Shown here in pieces: positions 35,353 to 53,711 of a DNA stretch of 64,000 nt. A program made the translations under genes and the position numbers. Origin of the DNA: an uncultured Coriobacteriaceae bacterium (GTDB lineage: Bacteria; Actinomycetota; Coriobacteriia; Coriobacteriales; Coriobacteriaceae); contig CALUOP010000001.1 in the NCBI GenBank assembly GCA_944322305.1, positions 310,001 to 374,000 of the forward strand, written 5' to 3'. Position 1 is the first letter of the stretch. Each line of letters opens with the position of its first letter. Below the pieces are notes generated by a model that had not been told where the DNA came from, made no database searches, and saw only the letters and a list, made by a program, of their open reading frames with translations.

Positions 35353-37323
35353 TTACTCCAGCTCGAAGGCGCCCGTGTACAGCTGGTAGTACACGCCCTT
35401 CTTGGCGATGAGCTCGTCATGGCTGCCGCGCTCGATGATGCGGCCGTGGTCGAGCACTATGATCGCATCGGAGTTGCGCACGGTGGAGAGGCGGTGCGCG
35501 ATGACGAAGGTAGTGCGCCCGCTCATGAGCGCGTCCATGCCCTTCTGCACGATGGCCTCGGTGCGCGTGTCGATGGAGCTCGTGGCCTCGTCCAGGATCA
35601 TCACCGGCGGGTCGGCAACGGCCGCGCGGCTGATCGAGAGCAGCTGGCGCTGGCCCTGGCTCAGGTTGGAACCGTTGTCGGTGAGCATCGTCTGATACCC
35701 CTGCGGCAGGCGCTCGATGAACCCGTGCGCGCCGGCGAGCTTGGCGGCGGCGATGCACTCCTCGTCCGTGGCGTCCAGACGGCCGTAGCGGATGTTGTCC
35801 ATCACCGTGCCGGTGAACAGGTTCACGTCCTGCAGCACCATGCCGAGCGAGCGGCGCAGGTCGCTCTTCTTGATCTTGGTGATGTTGATGCCGTCGTAGC
35901 GGATCTTGCCGTCGGCGATGTCGTAGAAGCGGTTGATGAGGTTGGTGATCGTGGTCTTGCCCGCGCCGGTGGCGCCCACGAAGGCGATCTTCTGGCCGGG
36001 CTTTGCCCACACGCTCACGTCGTGCAGGATGGTGTGGCCCGGCTTGTAGGCGAAGTCCACGTTGGTGAGGCGCACGTCGCCCTCAAGCGGCACGAGCTCG
36101 GTCACGCCGTTGTGGTGCGGGTGCTTCCACGCCCAGCGGCCGGTGTGCTTGTTGGCCGGCACCTCAACGAGCTTGCCGTTCTCCATCTTGGCGTTCACCA
36201 GCGTCACATAGCCCTCGTCATGCTCAGGCTCCTCGTCGGCGAGCTCAAAGAGGCGCTCGGCGCCGGCGAGGCCCATGACCACGGCGTTGATCTGCTGCGA
36301 GATCTGGCCGATCTGGCCAGCGAACTGCTTGGTCATGTTCAGGAACGGCACCGTCACGGCCACCGAGAACGCCAAGCCCGAGACAGACAGGTTCGGCACG
36401 CCCGAGGCAATGAAGATGCCGCCGGCGAGCGCCACGATGACGTACATCAGGTTGCCCAGGTTCATGAGGATGGGACCGAGCGTGTTGGTGTACATGTTGG
36501 CGGCGCGCGCGGCACGGAAGAGCTTCTCGTTGCGCACGTCGAAGTCCTCCTGCGCGGCCTGCTCGTGGCAGAACACCTTCACCACGCGCTGGCCGTTCAT
36601 GATCTCCTCGACATGGCCCTCGACGACGCCGATCTCGTGCTGCTGCGCCACGAAGTTGCGCGCAGAGCGGCCGCCGAGCTGCTTGGTCATGTAGGCCATG
36701 AAGGCCACGCCGCACACGACCACCAGGCACATCCACACGCTGTAGTACAGCATGACGCAGACCACCGAGCAGCAAGTGACCACGGTGAGCAGGATGTTGG
36801 GCAGCGACTGGCCGATCATCTGGCGCAGCGTGTCGATGTCGTTGGTGTAGTAGGACATGATGTCGCCGCGCTGGTGCTGGTCGAAGTAGCTGATCGGCAG
36901 GTCCTGCATGTGGTCGAACAGCTTCTCGCGGAACTTCTCGAGCGAGCCCTGCGTCACGATGGCCATCAGCTGGGTGTACAGCGTGTTCAGCGCGAGCGTG
37001 ACCACGTAGACGCCGATCAGCGTGAGCGACAGCGTGCCGATCTGCCCGGCAACGGCGTCCCAGTCGCCGGTCTGCCAGTGGGCGGTGACGATCTCGAGCG
37101 CGCGCTGGATGAAGGTCGCGGGCATAGCCGAGAGCATGGCCGAGATCACGATGCACACGATGACAACGGGCAGGATCTTGGGATAGAACGAGAAGAGCGT
37201 CTTGATGAGGCGGCCGAGCGTGCGCATGCGGCCGGGCTTCTTGGGCCCGTCGCCCTTCTGGCGGCGCGCCACGTTCTGGCGGTTCTCCTCGTAGGCCTTC
37301 TTGGCGTCGGAGTTAGCGCTCAT
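35353..37323 (-). CDS. ABC exporter half-transporter, catalytic-site subunit
   Basis: 656 aa: six membrane spans (about residues 50-350) and an ATPase domain. Walker A is GATGAGKTT, signature LSQGQRQLL, Walker B MILDEATSSID with the catalytic glutamate, switch IAHRLSTV. An extra stretch (about residues 365-420) separates the membrane and ATPase domains. The start is ATG 37323, overlapping the upstream exporter gene by 11 bp. With the partner at 37313-39148 it should form a heterodimeric exporter of the TM287/288 or LmrCD type, moving drugs, lipids or peptides outward. The substrate is unknown. Confidence 0.93.
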   Translation of the reverse strand: MSANSDAKKAYEENRQNVARRQKGDGPKKPGRMRTLGRLIKTLFSFYPKILPVVIVCIVISAMLSAMPATFIQRALEIVTAHWQTGDWDAVAGQIGTLSLTLIGVYVVTLALNTLYTQLMAIVTQGSLEKFREKLFDHMQDLPISYFDQHQRGDIMSYYTNDIDTLRQMIGQSLPNILLTVVTCCSVVCVMLYYSVWMCLVVVCGVAFMAYMTKQLGGRSARNFVAQQHEIGVVEGHVEEIMNGQRVVKVFCHEQAAQEDFDVRNEKLFRAARAANMYTNTLGPILMNLGNLMYVIVALAGGIFIASGVPNLSVSGLAFSVAVTVPFLNMTKQFAGQIGQISQQINAVVMGLAGAERLFELADEEPEHDEGYVTLVNAKMENGKLVEVPANKHTGRWAWKHPHHNGVTELVPLEGDVRLTNVDFAYKPGHTILHDVSVWAKPGQKIAFVGATGAGKTTITNLINRFYDIADGKIRYDGINITKIKKSDLRRSLGMVLQDVNLFTGTVMDNIRYGRLDATDEECIAAAKLAGAHGFIERLPQGYQTMLTDNGSNLSQGQRQLLSISRAAVADPPVMILDEATSSIDTRTEAIVQKGMDALMSGRTTFVIAHRLSTVRNSDAIIVLDHGRIIERGSHDELIAKKGVYYQLYTGAFELE

Positions 37324-39148
37324 CGGCGACACCCCCTTCCTCGGTTGCGGCATCTGCGGCGGCTGTCAGCTCCTTGGACTCCTCGCCCTCGACGGTCGAG
37401 TCGTCCTCGATCTCCTCCGCGCCCGTGCGGTTCTGGCTCTCGTAGGTGTCGCGGTAGATCTCGCAGGTCCTCATGAGCTCGTCGTGCGTGCCGAGGCCCG
37501 CGATGCAGCCGTTGTCGAGCACCAGGATGCGGTCGGCGTGCTCGACCGAGCTGGTGCGCTGGGCGATGATGATCTTGGTGGTCTCGGGCAGGTACTGAGC
37601 CAGGCCCTCGCGGATCAGCGCGTCGGTCTTGGTGTCGACGGCGGAGGTGGAGTCGTCCAGGATCAGCACCTTGGGGTGCTTGAGCAGGGCGCGCGCGATG
37701 CACAGGCGCTGCTTCTGGCCGCCGGAGACGTTGGTGCCGCCCTGTTCGATGTAGGTGTCGTACTTGTGCGGGAAGCCCTGGATGAACTCGTCGGCCTGGG
37801 CGAGCTTGCAGACCTCTACGAGCTCGTCGTAGGAGGCGTCCGGGTTGCCCCAGCGCAGGTTCTCCTTGATGGTGCCCGAGAACAGCACGTTTTTCTGCAG
37901 CACCACGGCCACGTTGTTGCGCAGGAAGTCCAGGTCGTAGGCGCGCACGTCCACGCCGCCGACCTTGACCGCGCCCTCGGTGACGTCGTACAGGCGGCTG
38001 ATGAGGTTCACCAGCGAGGTCTTGGCGGAACCGGTGCCGCCCATGACGCCGATGGTCTCGCCGCTCTTGATGTGCAGGTCGATGTCGGAGAGCGCCGCGT
38101 TCTCAGCCTTGGCAGAGTACTTGAACGTCACGTGGTCGAAGTCGATGGAGCCGTCGGCCATCTCGGTCACCGGGTGCTCCGGGTTCTCGATGGTGGGCTT
38201 GGTCTCGATAACCTCGACGATACGCTCGGCCGACTCCTGCGCCATGGTGATCATGGCGAAGACCATCGACACCATCATGAGCGCCATGAGGATCATGAAG
38301 CCGTAGGTGGTGAGCGCGGAGAACTGGCCGACGTTGAGCAGTGTGCCCTTGCTCGAGATGATGAGCCACGAGCCGAACTGGATGATGACCACGAACACGG
38401 TGAACACCGCGAAGTTCATCATCGGCGTGTTGAGCGCCAGGATGCGCTCGGCCTTTGTGAAGTCGCGGCAGACGTCCTGGGCAGCGCTGCCGAACTTGGC
38501 CTTCTCGAAGTCCTGGCGCACGTAGCTCTTGACGTCGCGCATGCCGGTGATGTTCTCCTCGATGGACTCGTTGAGCGCGTCGTACTTGTGAAACACCGAG
38601 CGGAAGATGGGGTGCACCGTGCGCACGACCTTGACCAGGCCGAAGGCGAGGATCGGCACGACGATCACGAACACGAGCGCCATGGGGCCGCCCATGACGA
38701 AGGCCATGATGATGCCGCAGATGAGGATCAGCGGGCAGCGGATGGCCGTGCGGATGATCATCATGTAGGCGAGCTGCACGTTGGTGATGTCGGTGGTGAG
38801 GCGCGTGACGAGCGAGCTCGGCGAGAACTGGTCGATGTTGGCGAAGCTGAAGCGCTGGACGGCGGCGAACACGTCGTGGCGCAGGTTCTTGGCGAAGCCG
38901 CAGCTGGCCTCTGAGCAGGTAACGCCGGCGCCGATGCCGAAGCACAGCGACGCGAGCGCCATGAGCACCAGGATGCCCGCGTACGGCAGCATCTCGGAGA
39001 TGCTCGCGCCGGACTGGATCGTGTTGATGAGCTGCGCTGTCACGAAGGGGATCGCCACCTCCATCACAACCTCGCCCGTGACGATGATAGGCGTCGCGAT
39101 GGCCGCCTTCTTGTACTCACGGATACTTTGCATGAGCGTGCTAATCAT
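37313..39148 (-). CDS. ABC exporter half-transporter, degenerate-site subunit
   Basis: 611 aa with six spans and an ATPase domain. Walker B reads LILDDSTSAVD, with aspartate where the catalytic glutamate normally is, as in the degenerate-site subunit of heterodimeric exporters. Walker A is GGTGSAKTS, in which the usual third glycine is alanine, an uncommon change. Signature is VSGGQKQRL. The start is ATG 39148 after GGGAGG; the longer opening upstream runs through a structured leader and is not coding. First gene of the two-gene operon, preceded by a promoter (39375-39403) and leader RNA with terminator. Confidence 0.92.
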   Translation of the reverse strand: MISTLMQSIREYKKAAIATPIIVTGEVVMEVAIPFVTAQLINTIQSGASISEMLPYAGILVLMALASLCFGIGAGVTCSEASCGFAKNLRHDVFAAVQRFSFANIDQFSPSSLVTRLTTDITNVQLAYMMIIRTAIRCPLILICGIIMAFVMGGPMALVFVIVVPILAFGLVKVVRTVHPIFRSVFHKYDALNESIEENITGMRDVKSYVRQDFEKAKFGSAAQDVCRDFTKAERILALNTPMMNFAVFTVFVVIIQFGSWLIISSKGTLLNVGQFSALTTYGFMILMALMMVSMVFAMITMAQESAERIVEVIETKPTIENPEHPVTEMADGSIDFDHVTFKYSAKAENAALSDIDLHIKSGETIGVMGGTGSAKTSLVNLISRLYDVTEGAVKVGGVDVRAYDLDFLRNNVAVVLQKNVLFSGTIKENLRWGNPDASYDELVEVCKLAQADEFIQGFPHKYDTYIEQGGTNVSGGQKQRLCIARALLKHPKVLILDDSTSAVDTKTDALIREGLAQYLPETTKIIIAQRTSSVEHADRILVLDNGCIAGLGTHDELMRTCEIYRDTYESQNRTGAEEIEDDSTVEGEESKELTAAADAATEEGGVADER

Positions 39149-39202
39149 CCATAGACCTCCCTGTGTCACACTCCCCCGCAGGGGCGCGTCCGGTGCTGCG
39201 GC

Positions 39203-39368
39203 AAAAAAGAGAGCCGCCTGGCGGCGAGCTCTCGTGGTGGACCCTGCGCAAAAACACCGCGTCCGCACTGGCAGGAAAACCCTGTTCGGCGCGAACGCGG
39301 TGTCACGGGCTTGTGTGCCGTCCACCGATGCGCTTTTGCGCAGGCCGAACGCGTGCCCTAATTCGTAC
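39203..39368 (-). ncRNA. Structured 5' leader with competing helices and terminator (candidate cis-regulatory RNA)
   Basis: Minus-strand leader of the ABC exporter operon. Nested helices: P1 TTCGGC/GCCGAA (39344-39349 with 39285-39290); P2 TGCGC/GCGCA with an AAAA loop (39329-39342); P3 CGGTG/CACCG (39323-39327 with 39298-39302), continued by ACGG/CCGT (39318-39321 with 39305-39308). Then a CAGG/CCTG hairpin (39272-39284). Alternatives: ACACCGCG/CGCGGTGT (39296-39303 with 39254-39261), an 11-nt pairing CCTGCGCAAAA/TTTTGCGCAGG (39334-39344 with 39243-39253) and a 7-nt pairing GGTGGAC/GTCCACC (39320-39326 with 39236-39242). A terminator with six U follows. No known riboswitch class is recognised. 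Confidence 0.7.
39209..39234 (-). terminator. Intrinsic terminator inside the ABC exporter leader
   Basis: GAGAG and CTCTC with an inner GCCGCC/GGCGGC stem, followed on the minus strand by six T (39203-39208). It lies 55 nt before the ABC start codon and downstream of its promoter, so it can act as an attenuator. Confidence 0.8.
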
Positions 39369-39374
39369 ATAACT

Positions 39375-39403
39375 ATGCTAGAAGCATGCCGATTCGATTG
39401 CAA
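39375..39403 (-). promoter_or_regulatory. Promoter of the ABC exporter operon
   Basis: -35 TTGCAA (39398-39403), a 17-bp spacer, and -10 TAGCAT (39375-39380) on the minus strand. Transcription would start near 39368, about 220 nt before the ATG. Confidence 0.65.
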
Positions 39404-39678
39404 GGCACCTTCCATACCTGCGTCCCAACCATGCACAGAAGCTTCACATGAAGCTGAATCTCCCCTGTTAGCACGGGGCGTTTGGCGGTAAGGGCTGCCG
39501 CGGAACGGGCGTTGAGGGCAGCCTGTCAGGGCGCCGGGCGCGGTGTCAGGTTGGCGGGAGCTCGCGGCGCGGGCGGCGTCGCGTCAAGCCGGCAGGCAGC
39601 CGGCGTCGCGGGTGGCGTTGTGGGCGGCGTCGCGGGCACTTCTCGCCTACAATGGCACCAACTAGCAGAGGAGGCATC

Positions 39679-40821
39679 ATGACCGCTCCCGATCCCGCCG
39701 CGCGCCGCACCCGAGACGCCTGGCCGCGCACGCTCGAAACCGCCCGCCTCGTTTTGCGCCCTTGGCGCGAGCAAGACGCCGAGACAGCCTTCCCCTACAT
39801 GCACGACCCCGCCGTGGGCCCGCGCGCCGGCTGGCCTGCGCACCGCACCGTGGAAGAGAGCCGCCGCATCGTGCGCGAGGTGCTCGCCGTGCCCGAGAAC
39901 TACGCCATCACGCTGAAGCGCTTGGCGCCCTTCGACCTGCCCATCGGCACCATCGGGCTCAAAGGCCCGGGGGCGAGCAACTTTGCCGGCACGGGCGAGG
40001 CCGAGATCGGCTACTGGATCGGCCGGCCGTTCTGGGGCCACGGCATCGCGCCCGAGGCGACCATCGAGATCATCCGCCACGCCTTCGAGGACCTGGGGCT
40101 TGCGGCCGTATGGTGCGCCTACTACGAGGGCAACGAGCAGAGCCACCGCGTGATGGAGAAGGCCGGGCTTATCCCCCACCACGTGGTCGAGAACGCCGCG
40201 CGGCCGCTTTTGGGCGACACCGCCACCGAGTACGTGACGCGCCTCACCCGCGCGGAGTGGGAGCGCGGGCGCGCGCAGGACCCCGTGGACGCGGCAACGC
40301 GCAGCGCCCAGCAGGCAGAGCGCGCGCGGATCGAGCACGGCATGCGGCGCATCGCGTTCATCCGCTCCGGCGGGCAGACGGGATCGGACCGGGGAGCGCT
40401 CGACGCGGCGCGGGCGGCAGGCGTCGCCATCTGCGGCTGGTGCCCGGCCGGCGGCCTCGCCGAGGACATGGACGCCGCACCCGGGCTGCTCGGCCCCTAC
40501 CCCGAGCTTGCCGAGACGCCGTCGGCGGGCTACATGCAGCGCACCGCCTGGAACGTGCGCGACTCCCACGCCACGCTGGTGGTCTCGCCCGACGGCGTGG
40601 AGCCCGCGAGCGGCACCAGCGCCACCGTCGACCTCGCGCGCGCCTACGGACGGCCCGTGTTCGTCGCAGACCGCGTCGACGACCTGCCGGCCATCCGCGC
40701 GTGGCTCGCCGAGGTGGGGCGCGACCTCACGCTCAACGTCGCCGGCCCGCGCGGGAGCAAGGTCCCCACGGCCTACGCCATGACGCACGACATCGTGCGG
40801 CAGCTGCTGGAGGACGCGTAG
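39679..40821 (+). CDS. GNAT acetyltransferase fused to a molybdenum-carrier-like (SLOG) domain
   Basis: 380 aa in two parts. Residues about 15-190 form a RimJ/RimL-type N-acetyltransferase (ETARLVLRPWREQDAE, GEAEIGYWIGRPFWGHGIAPEA, GNEQSHRVMEKAGL). Residues about 225-375 match the 'putative molybdenum carrier' type of SLOG domain (IRSGGQTGSDRGALDAA, ICGWCPAGGLAEDM, RTAWNVRDSHATLVVSP). The start is ATG 39679 after GAGGAGG. The second domain binds molybdenum cofactor or nucleotide-like ligands in relatives. moaA and moaC-mobB are 5 kb away. The joined function is not known. Confidence 0.85.
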   Translation: MTAPDPAARRTRDAWPRTLETARLVLRPWREQDAETAFPYMHDPAVGPRAGWPAHRTVEESRRIVREVLAVPENYAITLKRLAPFDLPIGTIGLKGPGASNFAGTGEAEIGYWIGRPFWGHGIAPEATIEIIRHAFEDLGLAAVWCAYYEGNEQSHRVMEKAGLIPHHVVENAARPLLGDTATEYVTRLTRAEWERGRAQDPVDAATRSAQQAERARIEHGMRRIAFIRSGGQTGSDRGALDAARAAGVAICGWCPAGGLAEDMDAAPGLLGPYPELAETPSAGYMQRTAWNVRDSHATLVVSPDGVEPASGTSATVDLARAYGRPVFVADRVDDLPAIRAWLAEVGRDLTLNVAGPRGSKVPTAYAMTHDIVRQLLEDA

Positions 40822-51380: not shown

Positions 51381-53128
51381 CAGCGCTCACCTCCTTCCCC
51401 GTTAGGGGCCCCGTGCGTCTGCGACGCGTAAATCTCCTGGTAGATGCCATCACGCTCGAGAAGCTCCTCGTGCGTGCCCACCGCGTGCACGCGGCCGTCG
51501 TCCAAAACCACGATCTGGTCGGCCCCCACCACCGAGCTCACGCGCTGCGCGATGATGATCTTGGTCACGCCGTGAAGCGCCGCGAGGCTCTCGCGGATGT
51601 CTGCCTCGGTGGCGGTGTCGACCGCGCTGGTCGAGTCGTCGAAGATGACCACCTTCGGGCTCTTCAGCAGCGCGCGGGCTATGCACAGGCGCTGCTTCTG
51701 CCCGCCGGACACGTTCACGCCGCCCTGCCCCAGGTCGTAGTCGAGCCCGCCGGGCAAACGATCCAAGAACTCGTCCACGCGCGCCTGGCGGCACGCGGCG
51801 AGCAGCTCCTCGTCGGAGGCGTCGGCGTTGCCCCACCGGAGGTTCTCGCGCACCGTGCCCGAGAAGAGCACGTTTTTCTGCAGCACGATGGCCACCGCGT
51901 CGCGCAGGGCCGCGAGGTCGTAGGCGCGTACGTCGAGCCCGCCCACGGTAACCCTCCCCGCGGTGACGTCGTACAGGCGCGGGATGAGCTGCACCAGCGT
52001 GGTCTTGCCCGAGCCCGTGCCGCCGAGGATGCCCACCGTGGAGCCCGCGGGGATGGTGAGCGTCACATGCTCCAGTGCGTGCTCGCGAGCGTCGGCGCGG
52101 TACTTAAACGACACGTCCTCAAACGTCACCGCCCCGTTTCTCACCTCGGTCACAGCGCCTTCCGGCGAGGAGAGCGCCACCGGCTCGTCCAGCACCTCGC
52201 AGATGCGGTGAATGCTCGCCAGCGACCGCGTAAGCAGCAAAAACACGTTGGAGATCATGATGAGCGAGTTCATGATCTGCATCACGTAGGACAGAAGCCC
52301 CGTGAGCTCGCCCACAGCGAGGCCGCCGCCCAAGATCATCTGCCCGCCGAACCACATGATGAGCGTGGTCGCGGTGTACATGGACACCTGCAGCACCGGC
52401 ACGTTCAGCACCGCGTAGCGGAAGGTGTCCTCGCTCGTGCGCGCCAGTCCCTCGTTTACCTGGGCAAACTGCGCACGCTCGTAATCGCCGCGCACATAGG
52501 CCTTCACCACGCGCACCGCCGTGAGCATCTCCTGCACCCGGTCGTTGAGCTTGTCCACCGTGGCCTGCAGCACGCCGTAGCTGGGGCCCACGCGCCTAAC
52601 GATAAGCGCCAGCGCCACCGCCATCACCGGCGTCACGCACAGAAACACCAGCGCCAACTCGGCGTTGAGGTAAAACGCCATGCCGAAGCCGATCACGATC
52701 ATCACCGGGCCGCGCACCATGGGGCGGAACCCTGCGTTGAGCGCGTTTTGGATCACCGTGACGTCGGTGGTCATGCGCGTGACGAGCGAGGACGTCTCGA
52801 AGCGGTCGAGGTTGGAGAACGCGTACTCCTGCACGCGCTCGTACTCCGCCGCGCGCAGCCGCGCCCCGAGCCCGTAGCTGGCCCGCGCCGCGAAGCGCGC
52901 GTACAAAAGGCCCGTCACCAAGGCGAGAAGCGCGCAGACGCCCATGTAGGTGCCCTGGCGCAGGATGTAGGCGGTGTCGCGGTTGGCCACGCCCACGTCT
53001 ATGATGTCGGCCATGAGGATGGGGATGACCATCTCGAAGGCGCTCTCCACCACCACGAGCAGCATGCCGAGCACCGCGTCGCGCTTGTACTGCCCCAGGT
53101 AGCTCACGATGCGCTTAAGCTCGCCCAT
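51380..53128 (-). CDS. ABC exporter half-transporter, degenerate-site subunit (MarR operon)
   Basis: 582 aa with six spans and an ATPase domain. Walker A is GGTGSGKTT (consensus), signature VSGGQKQRL, and Walker B VIFDDSTSAVD has Asp in place of the catalytic Glu, marking the degenerate-site partner. The start taken is ATG 53128, overlapping marR by 14 bp with AAGGGGG upstream; ATG 53155 is possible. Middle gene of marR-ABC-ABC. Export of drugs or toxic metabolites is likely by analogy with similar MarR-linked pairs. Confidence 0.93.
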   Translation of the reverse strand: MGELKRIVSYLGQYKRDAVLGMLLVVVESAFEMVIPILMADIIDVGVANRDTAYILRQGTYMGVCALLALVTGLLYARFAARASYGLGARLRAAEYERVQEYAFSNLDRFETSSLVTRMTTDVTVIQNALNAGFRPMVRGPVMIVIGFGMAFYLNAELALVFLCVTPVMAVALALIVRRVGPSYGVLQATVDKLNDRVQEMLTAVRVVKAYVRGDYERAQFAQVNEGLARTSEDTFRYAVLNVPVLQVSMYTATTLIMWFGGQMILGGGLAVGELTGLLSYVMQIMNSLIMISNVFLLLTRSLASIHRICEVLDEPVALSSPEGAVTEVRNGAVTFEDVSFKYRADAREHALEHVTLTIPAGSTVGILGGTGSGKTTLVQLIPRLYDVTAGRVTVGGLDVRAYDLAALRDAVAIVLQKNVLFSGTVRENLRWGNADASDEELLAACRQARVDEFLDRLPGGLDYDLGQGGVNVSGGQKQRLCIARALLKSPKVVIFDDSTSAVDTATEADIRESLAALHGVTKIIIAQRVSSVVGADQIVVLDDGRVHAVGTHEELLERDGIYQEIYASQTHGAPNGEGGER

Positions 53129-53711
53129 GGCGCTCGCCCCCTTCGGAAGCCGCATCCAGCAGGTTGCCGTACGCGCGCGTGAGCAGCGCTTTGAACGTCG
53201 CGCGTTCCTCGTCCGTAAAGCCCGCGCACGCCGCCTTCTCCAAGTCGGCGCACGCCGCGTCCCACGCCGCCACGGCCTTGCGCCCGCGCGCGGTAAGCTC
53301 GATCTCCTTGGCGCGCCGATCGCGCGCGTGCGGCGCCGCCTCGATGTAGCCGCCGCGCTTGAGCGCCTCGATCATGCGAGAGATGGCCGCCGGGTCAAGC
53401 GAGAAATACTGGGCCACTTGCCGCTGTGTCGCCTTTCCGTACACGGCGAGGTACGTAAGGATCTTGGGTTGCCCCACGCCCAGCTCGACTTTGTCGTTGC
53501 AGAACAGGTATCGGCGCTGCGCGTGGAACAGGCGGTACACGAGCGCATGCAGGTCAAAGAGCGCGCTGCCCTTGCCCACGCTCACTGCGCGCTGCTCGGG
53601 CAGCTCGGGCCACGGCGGCACCGGCGCTGCTGCGGCAGGCACGGGCTCGCTAGCCGCGGCGACCCCCGCCTCCGCTGCGGGACGCTCGTGTTGCGCCTCA
53701 CCTTGTTGCAT
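53115..53711 (-). CDS. MarR-family transcriptional regulator
   Basis: 198 aa. A 45-residue Ala/Pro/Glu-rich N-terminal extension precedes the winged-helix core (ILTYLAVYGKATQRQVAQYF, LDPAAISRMIEALKRGGYI, RDRRAKEIELTARG). ATG 53711 follows GGGAG by 8 nt; GTG 53720 sits on the ribosome site. First gene of the operon. A perfect TTGATATATCAA palindrome and a partial copy lie just upstream (53731-53756), the probable autoregulatory operator controlling the exporter. Confidence 0.92.
   Translation of the reverse strand: MQQGEAQHERPAAEAGVAAASEPVPAAAAPVPPWPELPEQRAVSVGKGSALFDLHALVYRLFHAQRRYLFCNDKVELGVGQPKILTYLAVYGKATQRQVAQYFSLDPAAISRMIEALKRGGYIEAAPHARDRRAKEIELTARGRKAVAAWDAACADLEKAACAGFTDEERATFKALLTRAYGNLLDAASEGGERHGRA

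Follow-up and report, generated by a model that had tools for sequence, protein, structure and literature searches.

A genus-limited, terminator-bearing leader RNA as a candidate attenuator of a heterodimeric ABC exporter in Coriobacteriaceae

Comparison of a 64,000-nt stretch of an uncultured Coriobacteriaceae genome (the window) with related genomes suggests that the RNA leader preceding a heterodimeric ABC exporter is a lineage-specific, cis-acting transcription attenuator, which may serve as a terminator-based brake on the exporter after loss of its MarR repressor. We place the probability of this reading at about 0.58. The leader lies behind a conserved promoter, carries two stable sense-strand hairpins with U-tracts and has a fold under selection, and the cognate MarR gene is absent from the locus. 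In the proposed mechanism, transcription would start near 39368, the nascent RNA would form a stable fold of several helices (hp1, P2 around P3/T1, and finally T2), and polymerase would usually halt at T1 or T2, leaving the pump to be expressed from read-through transcripts only. The attenuator would have arisen in a small gut-bacterial genus that lacks an exporter-coupled MarR, as a substitute brake.

The exporter is encoded on the minus strand by two adjacent, overlapping half-transporter genes, both with ABC_membrane and ABC_tran domains. Half A (37313-39148) is TM287-like, with TM287 among its best bacterial matches, and its Walker B site reads LILDDSTS, in which the catalytic glutamate is degenerate; half B (35353-37353) carries the canonical MILDEATSS. 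This is the arrangement of heterodimeric exporters of the TM287/288 type with one degenerate site. Translation is expected from an ATG at 39148-39146, preceded by a GGAGG ribosome-binding site at 39156-39160 (both minus strand). The window holds a second, paralogous exporter half (51404-53107, minus strand; 45% identical) with its own adjoining MarR-type gene at about 53310-53471 (minus strand), and MarR control seems to persist for this paralog.

A sigma-70-like promoter, TTGCAA-N17-TAGCAT, was described upstream of the exporter in the preliminary description, and we locate it at 39403-39375 on the minus strand, with transcription predicted to start at approximately 39369-39368. It is conserved in all four sampled species of the genus (G000, the window genome, and G001 to G003). 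Beyond it, the window, G001 and the pair G002/G003 have different genes, but the exporter stays joined to the promoter in each. In the window the upstream gene is divergent, and the terminators have no upstream minus-strand gene to serve. The gene at this position in G001 is a different, co-directional one of the LysR type, and promoter, leader and exporter still form one block. The divergent neighbor in the window (39652-40821, plus strand) is a single reading frame that encodes both a GNAT acetyltransferase domain and a circularly permuted SLOG domain of the YpsA type, an unusual-looking fusion. Further upstream in G001, past the LysR gene (locus L038, 5738-7898), overlapping open frames resemble another copy of the exporter halves, shortened and rearranged.

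Outside the genus, the same exporter (about 60-90% protein identity) is differently equipped. Throughout the other genera of the family, the orthologous exporter follows immediately on a gene for a MarR-type repressor, which overlaps or abuts the exporter start at each of the 46 loci examined; these genes are 58-100% identical to the query and match the Pfam MarR family. In both arrangements the control element stands directly before the first exporter gene, but none of the four genus members has a marR beside the exporter, and their best MarR match anywhere is at most 40% identical, as expected of paralogs. The leader does not appear to be a remnant of marR, as tblastn gave no match at the locus in any of the four species, and inheritance of the promoter from a marR operon was likewise rejected, since in other genera the 1.5 kb preceding the exporter do not contain this promoter. 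From these comparisons, the simplest history would be that marR was lost in the genus and a new promoter acquired. The terminator leader would then have been either gained in the line of G000 and G001 or lost in that of G002 and G003; the tree of exporter half A is too poorly resolved to show whether the genus is a clade or which of the two occurred.

The leader itself, claimed earlier at about 165 nt, spans about 166 nt (39203-39368, minus strand) and folds far better than shuffled sequence. Its minimum free energy (MFE) is -83.2 kcal/mol (z = -4.93), a value equaled by none of 200 dinucleotide shuffles, and the leader of G001 gives a z of -3.48, versus +0.15 for the terminator-less leader of G002. 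In the MFE fold, a local hairpin, hp1 (GCGC-AAAA-GCGC, 39330-39341), is followed by the P2 helix, in which GGTGGAC (39326-39320) pairs with GTCCACC (39242-39236) to close the central domain of the leader around a small hairpin and the 16-bp P3 stem (39304-39289/39268-39253). P3 runs into UUUUU (whole element 39250-39304) and is probably a second, upstream terminator, T1; it was recognized by inspection of the sequence, its loop being longer than the limit of the scanner that compiled the terminator list. Then comes T2, a sense-strand intrinsic terminator located between the promoter and the first gene (39203-39233) and consisting of the hairpin GAGAGC-U-CGCC-GCCA-GGCG-GCUCUC (39233-39209) and six U (39208-39203). 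The stems of hp1 and T2 are invariant in G001, and the predicted probability of T2 is 0.93-0.995 in the two species. A terminator with six U had been noted 55 nt before the first codon, and the distance from the U-run to the start codon is 54 nt. Beyond T2, CCGGACGCG (39185-39193) can pair with CGCGTTCGG (39353-39345) in a long-range helix, P0, which is possible only in read-through RNA and is mostly retained in G001.

This leader occurs in two of the four sampled species, the window genome and G001, whose sequences are 77% identical across promoter and leader. A covariance model of the leader (R1) found convincing matches in these two genomes only, among 67 genomes of the family and 400 of the class. 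Weaker family matches (approximately 19-27 bits) were rejected, as their alignments contain many non-pairs and they recur nearly identically across species, as coding sequence would; one further match within the window's own genome covers only a P3-like hairpin. G002 and G003 have the promoter and the box upstream of it at identical spacing, but the leader that follows is unlike this one, measures roughly 100 nt and contains no terminator; that these species manage with the same promoter but without this leader counts against the attenuator. Their leaders (L005, 1400-1512, and the corresponding part of L004) are nearly identical to one another; they contain a long-range TTGACG/CGTCAA match and an ORF with a stop codon that overlaps the exporter start (ATGGATGATTAG).

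At 27 of 164 aligned positions the leaders of the window and G001 differ (16%, or 10% outside the P3 loop). The exporter differs at 29% of its four-fold degenerate sites, and the leader is thus the slower to diverge (P = 0.004 for the whole leader, 1e-5 excluding the P3 loop). Taking as fold model the MFE structure predicted from the window alone, G001 breaks five of 53 pairs, versus 10.7 expected by randomization (P = 0.008). All of the broken pairs fall in a weak 5' hairpin and the tip of P3, while hp1, P2, the P3 stem and T2 lose none. P3/T1 takes four one-sided compatible changes with no pair broken; changes in the main helices as a whole number four, all of this kind, with no double compensatory change. 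These patterns lend modest support to purifying selection on the predicted fold, with P-values that assume independent sites in one species pair. The genomes are drafts, three or more being metagenome-derived or uncultured, and the comparison covers two leader sequences, too few for true covariation to show. The preliminary description had looked to relatives for a leader of similar fold, which G001 provides, and for covarying pairs, where the main helices show one-sided compatible changes only.

The original interest of the leader lay in two long-range pairings, of 11 and 7 nt, reported in A-B-A'-B' order and thought either to make a pseudoknot or to exclude one another. Both are present in that order. 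Since the 7-nt linker would need to span about 18 stacked pairs, we infer that the two helices could hardly coexist, so that exclusion fits better than a pseudoknot. The 11-nt pairing joins CCTGCGCAAAA (39344-39334) to TTTTGCGCAGG (39253-39243); it has a predicted probability of about 0.06 in the window, is only about 2 kcal/mol less favorable there than the MFE ensemble, and is not conserved, three of its 11 pairs being disrupted in G001. The 7-nt pairing (39326-39320/39242-39236, the P2 helix) does not vary between the two species, which is uninformative for or against it. The 8-nt helix ACACCGCG/CGCGGTGT also exists, but rather than competing with the main fold it is the core of the 16-bp MFE stem (probability about 0.97), and this stem shares just one base with the 11-nt pairing. 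The 11-nt inverted repeat was also considered as a mobile element (MITE) and rejected, as it has a single genomic copy and is degenerate in G001.

The mutually exclusive folds do not hold up as a switch: the only relative that has the leader does not preserve the 11-nt helix, and no fold disrupts T2. Forcing the 11-nt pairing leaves T2, which it does not overlap, free to form, and prohibiting T2 costs approximately 19-22 kcal/mol in both species. Fold predictions for the window and G001 revealed no conserved antiterminator helix of useful strength overlapping T2; the sole helix that overlaps it in both species, GCGGTG/CGCCGC, has a probability of 0. As neither long-range pairing touches T2 and the 11-nt pairing is not conserved, no RNA-only switch is visible. 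Regulation, if any, would then require a factor acting in trans, a ligand that blocks T2, or tuning of terminator strength.

These results bear on the idea of a ligand-sensing riboswitch or protein-responsive antitermination, in which a metabolite, drug or RNA-binding protein would stabilize an alternative fold such as the 11-nt pairing and let polymerase pass. The small energetic cost of that pairing in the window suits such a mechanism, as do the complexity and conservation of the leader and the fact that an efflux-type pump is a common target. We nevertheless consider it unlikely, given that the 11-nt helix is broken in G001, that neither fold overlaps T2 and that the leader is found in only two of 400 class genomes sampled. 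Known riboswitch classes are usually far more widespread. Rfam cis-regulatory classes share with this leader a structured 5' region with a terminator, but none matches it: apart from a chance hit to a plant miRNA, a search of the leader returned nothing at gathering or relaxed (E <= 10) thresholds, including any riboswitch or T-box model, in agreement with the earlier failure to match it to a known class. A T-box reading of GTGACACCGCG was dropped as no model match accompanies it. A riboswitch reading of the leader is thus possible but unsupported, and we think it improbable that the genus swapped MarR for an RNA that senses the substrate or effect of the pump through an undescribed fold.

Attenuation coupled to ribosomes, as in bmrBCD, would require translation of an ORF beginning at an ATG just after the -10 box, with slowed ribosomes opening T1 or T2. 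Such an ATG lies 3-4 nt past the -10 box in all four genomes, and in the window its frame is open through into the exporter. However, the first part of this frame differs between the window and G001 by 10 nonsynonymous codons and one synonymous codon, after which a 10-nt indel shifts the frame, and the ATG in G001 yields a different ORF of 12 codons; substitution pattern and frameshift together speak against both a leader peptide and an N-terminal extension of the exporter. A Shine-Dalgarno sequence is impossible before the ATG, and transcription may start downstream of it. The absence of a conserved leader peptide argues against simple ribosome-coupled attenuation, which we regard as doubtful. 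Of the earlier reading, a cis-acting, terminator-bearing leader is supported, and mutually exclusive folds acting as a switch are not.

Control could instead be exerted at the promoter. The upstream box TTCTGTGCA (39432-39440, minus strand) precedes CCTTGCA by exactly 26 nt in each of the four genus members, and the arrangement TTCTGTGCA-N26-CCTTGCA, which abuts the -35 box, is confined to this genus in a scan of 84,980 species genomes. The box is possibly an operator half-site (TGCAWRG/CCTTGCA inverted repeat), on which a new transcription factor might act, the terminators then having little effect. As a full account this has a low probability, for it leaves fold selection in two species unexplained, and the arrangement occurs once in the genome, with no regulon seen. 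Promoter-level control and the attenuator are compatible, and both could hold. That the main product is instead a small RNA of approximately 115-165 nt, ending at T1 or T2 and acting elsewhere with incidental read-through into the exporter, would suit its own promoter, stable fold and tandem terminators but is highly improbable, as the same promoter drives the exporter directly in G002/G003, with no terminator, and the two species with the leader both keep it joined to the exporter.

The proposed attenuator resembles two characterized systems in part. In Streptococcus pneumoniae, a leader terminator restrains expression of the heterodimeric exporter patAB, and its disruption raises expression (PMC4319486); there too an intrinsic terminator precedes the start codon by about 30-50 nt. 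In patAB the start site lies 67 nt upstream, giving a far shorter leader, which has predicted antiterminator loops (PMC4319486), whereas the present leader is about 166 nt long, probably has two terminators and has no visible antiterminator. In the bmrBCD operon of Bacillus subtilis, which also encodes a heterodimeric multidrug exporter, the region between promoter and genes holds an intrinsic terminator along with alternative stem-loops, and attenuation requires the translated leader peptide BmrB (PMC4191407), for which the leader described here has no conserved counterpart. The present leader is thus closer to patAB in role and to bmrBCD in complexity.

In conclusion, transcription attenuation of heterodimeric exporters is already known, and what is new here is a very narrow, genus-limited case. 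It illustrates regulatory turnover, in which the exporter is kept, the linked repressor is gone and a genus-specific promoter takes over, joined in half of the sampled species by a structured terminator leader. This makes it possible to test how an efflux pump is controlled in the absence of its usual repressor, and whether RNA attenuators of recent origin begin as simple terminators and acquire their signal later.
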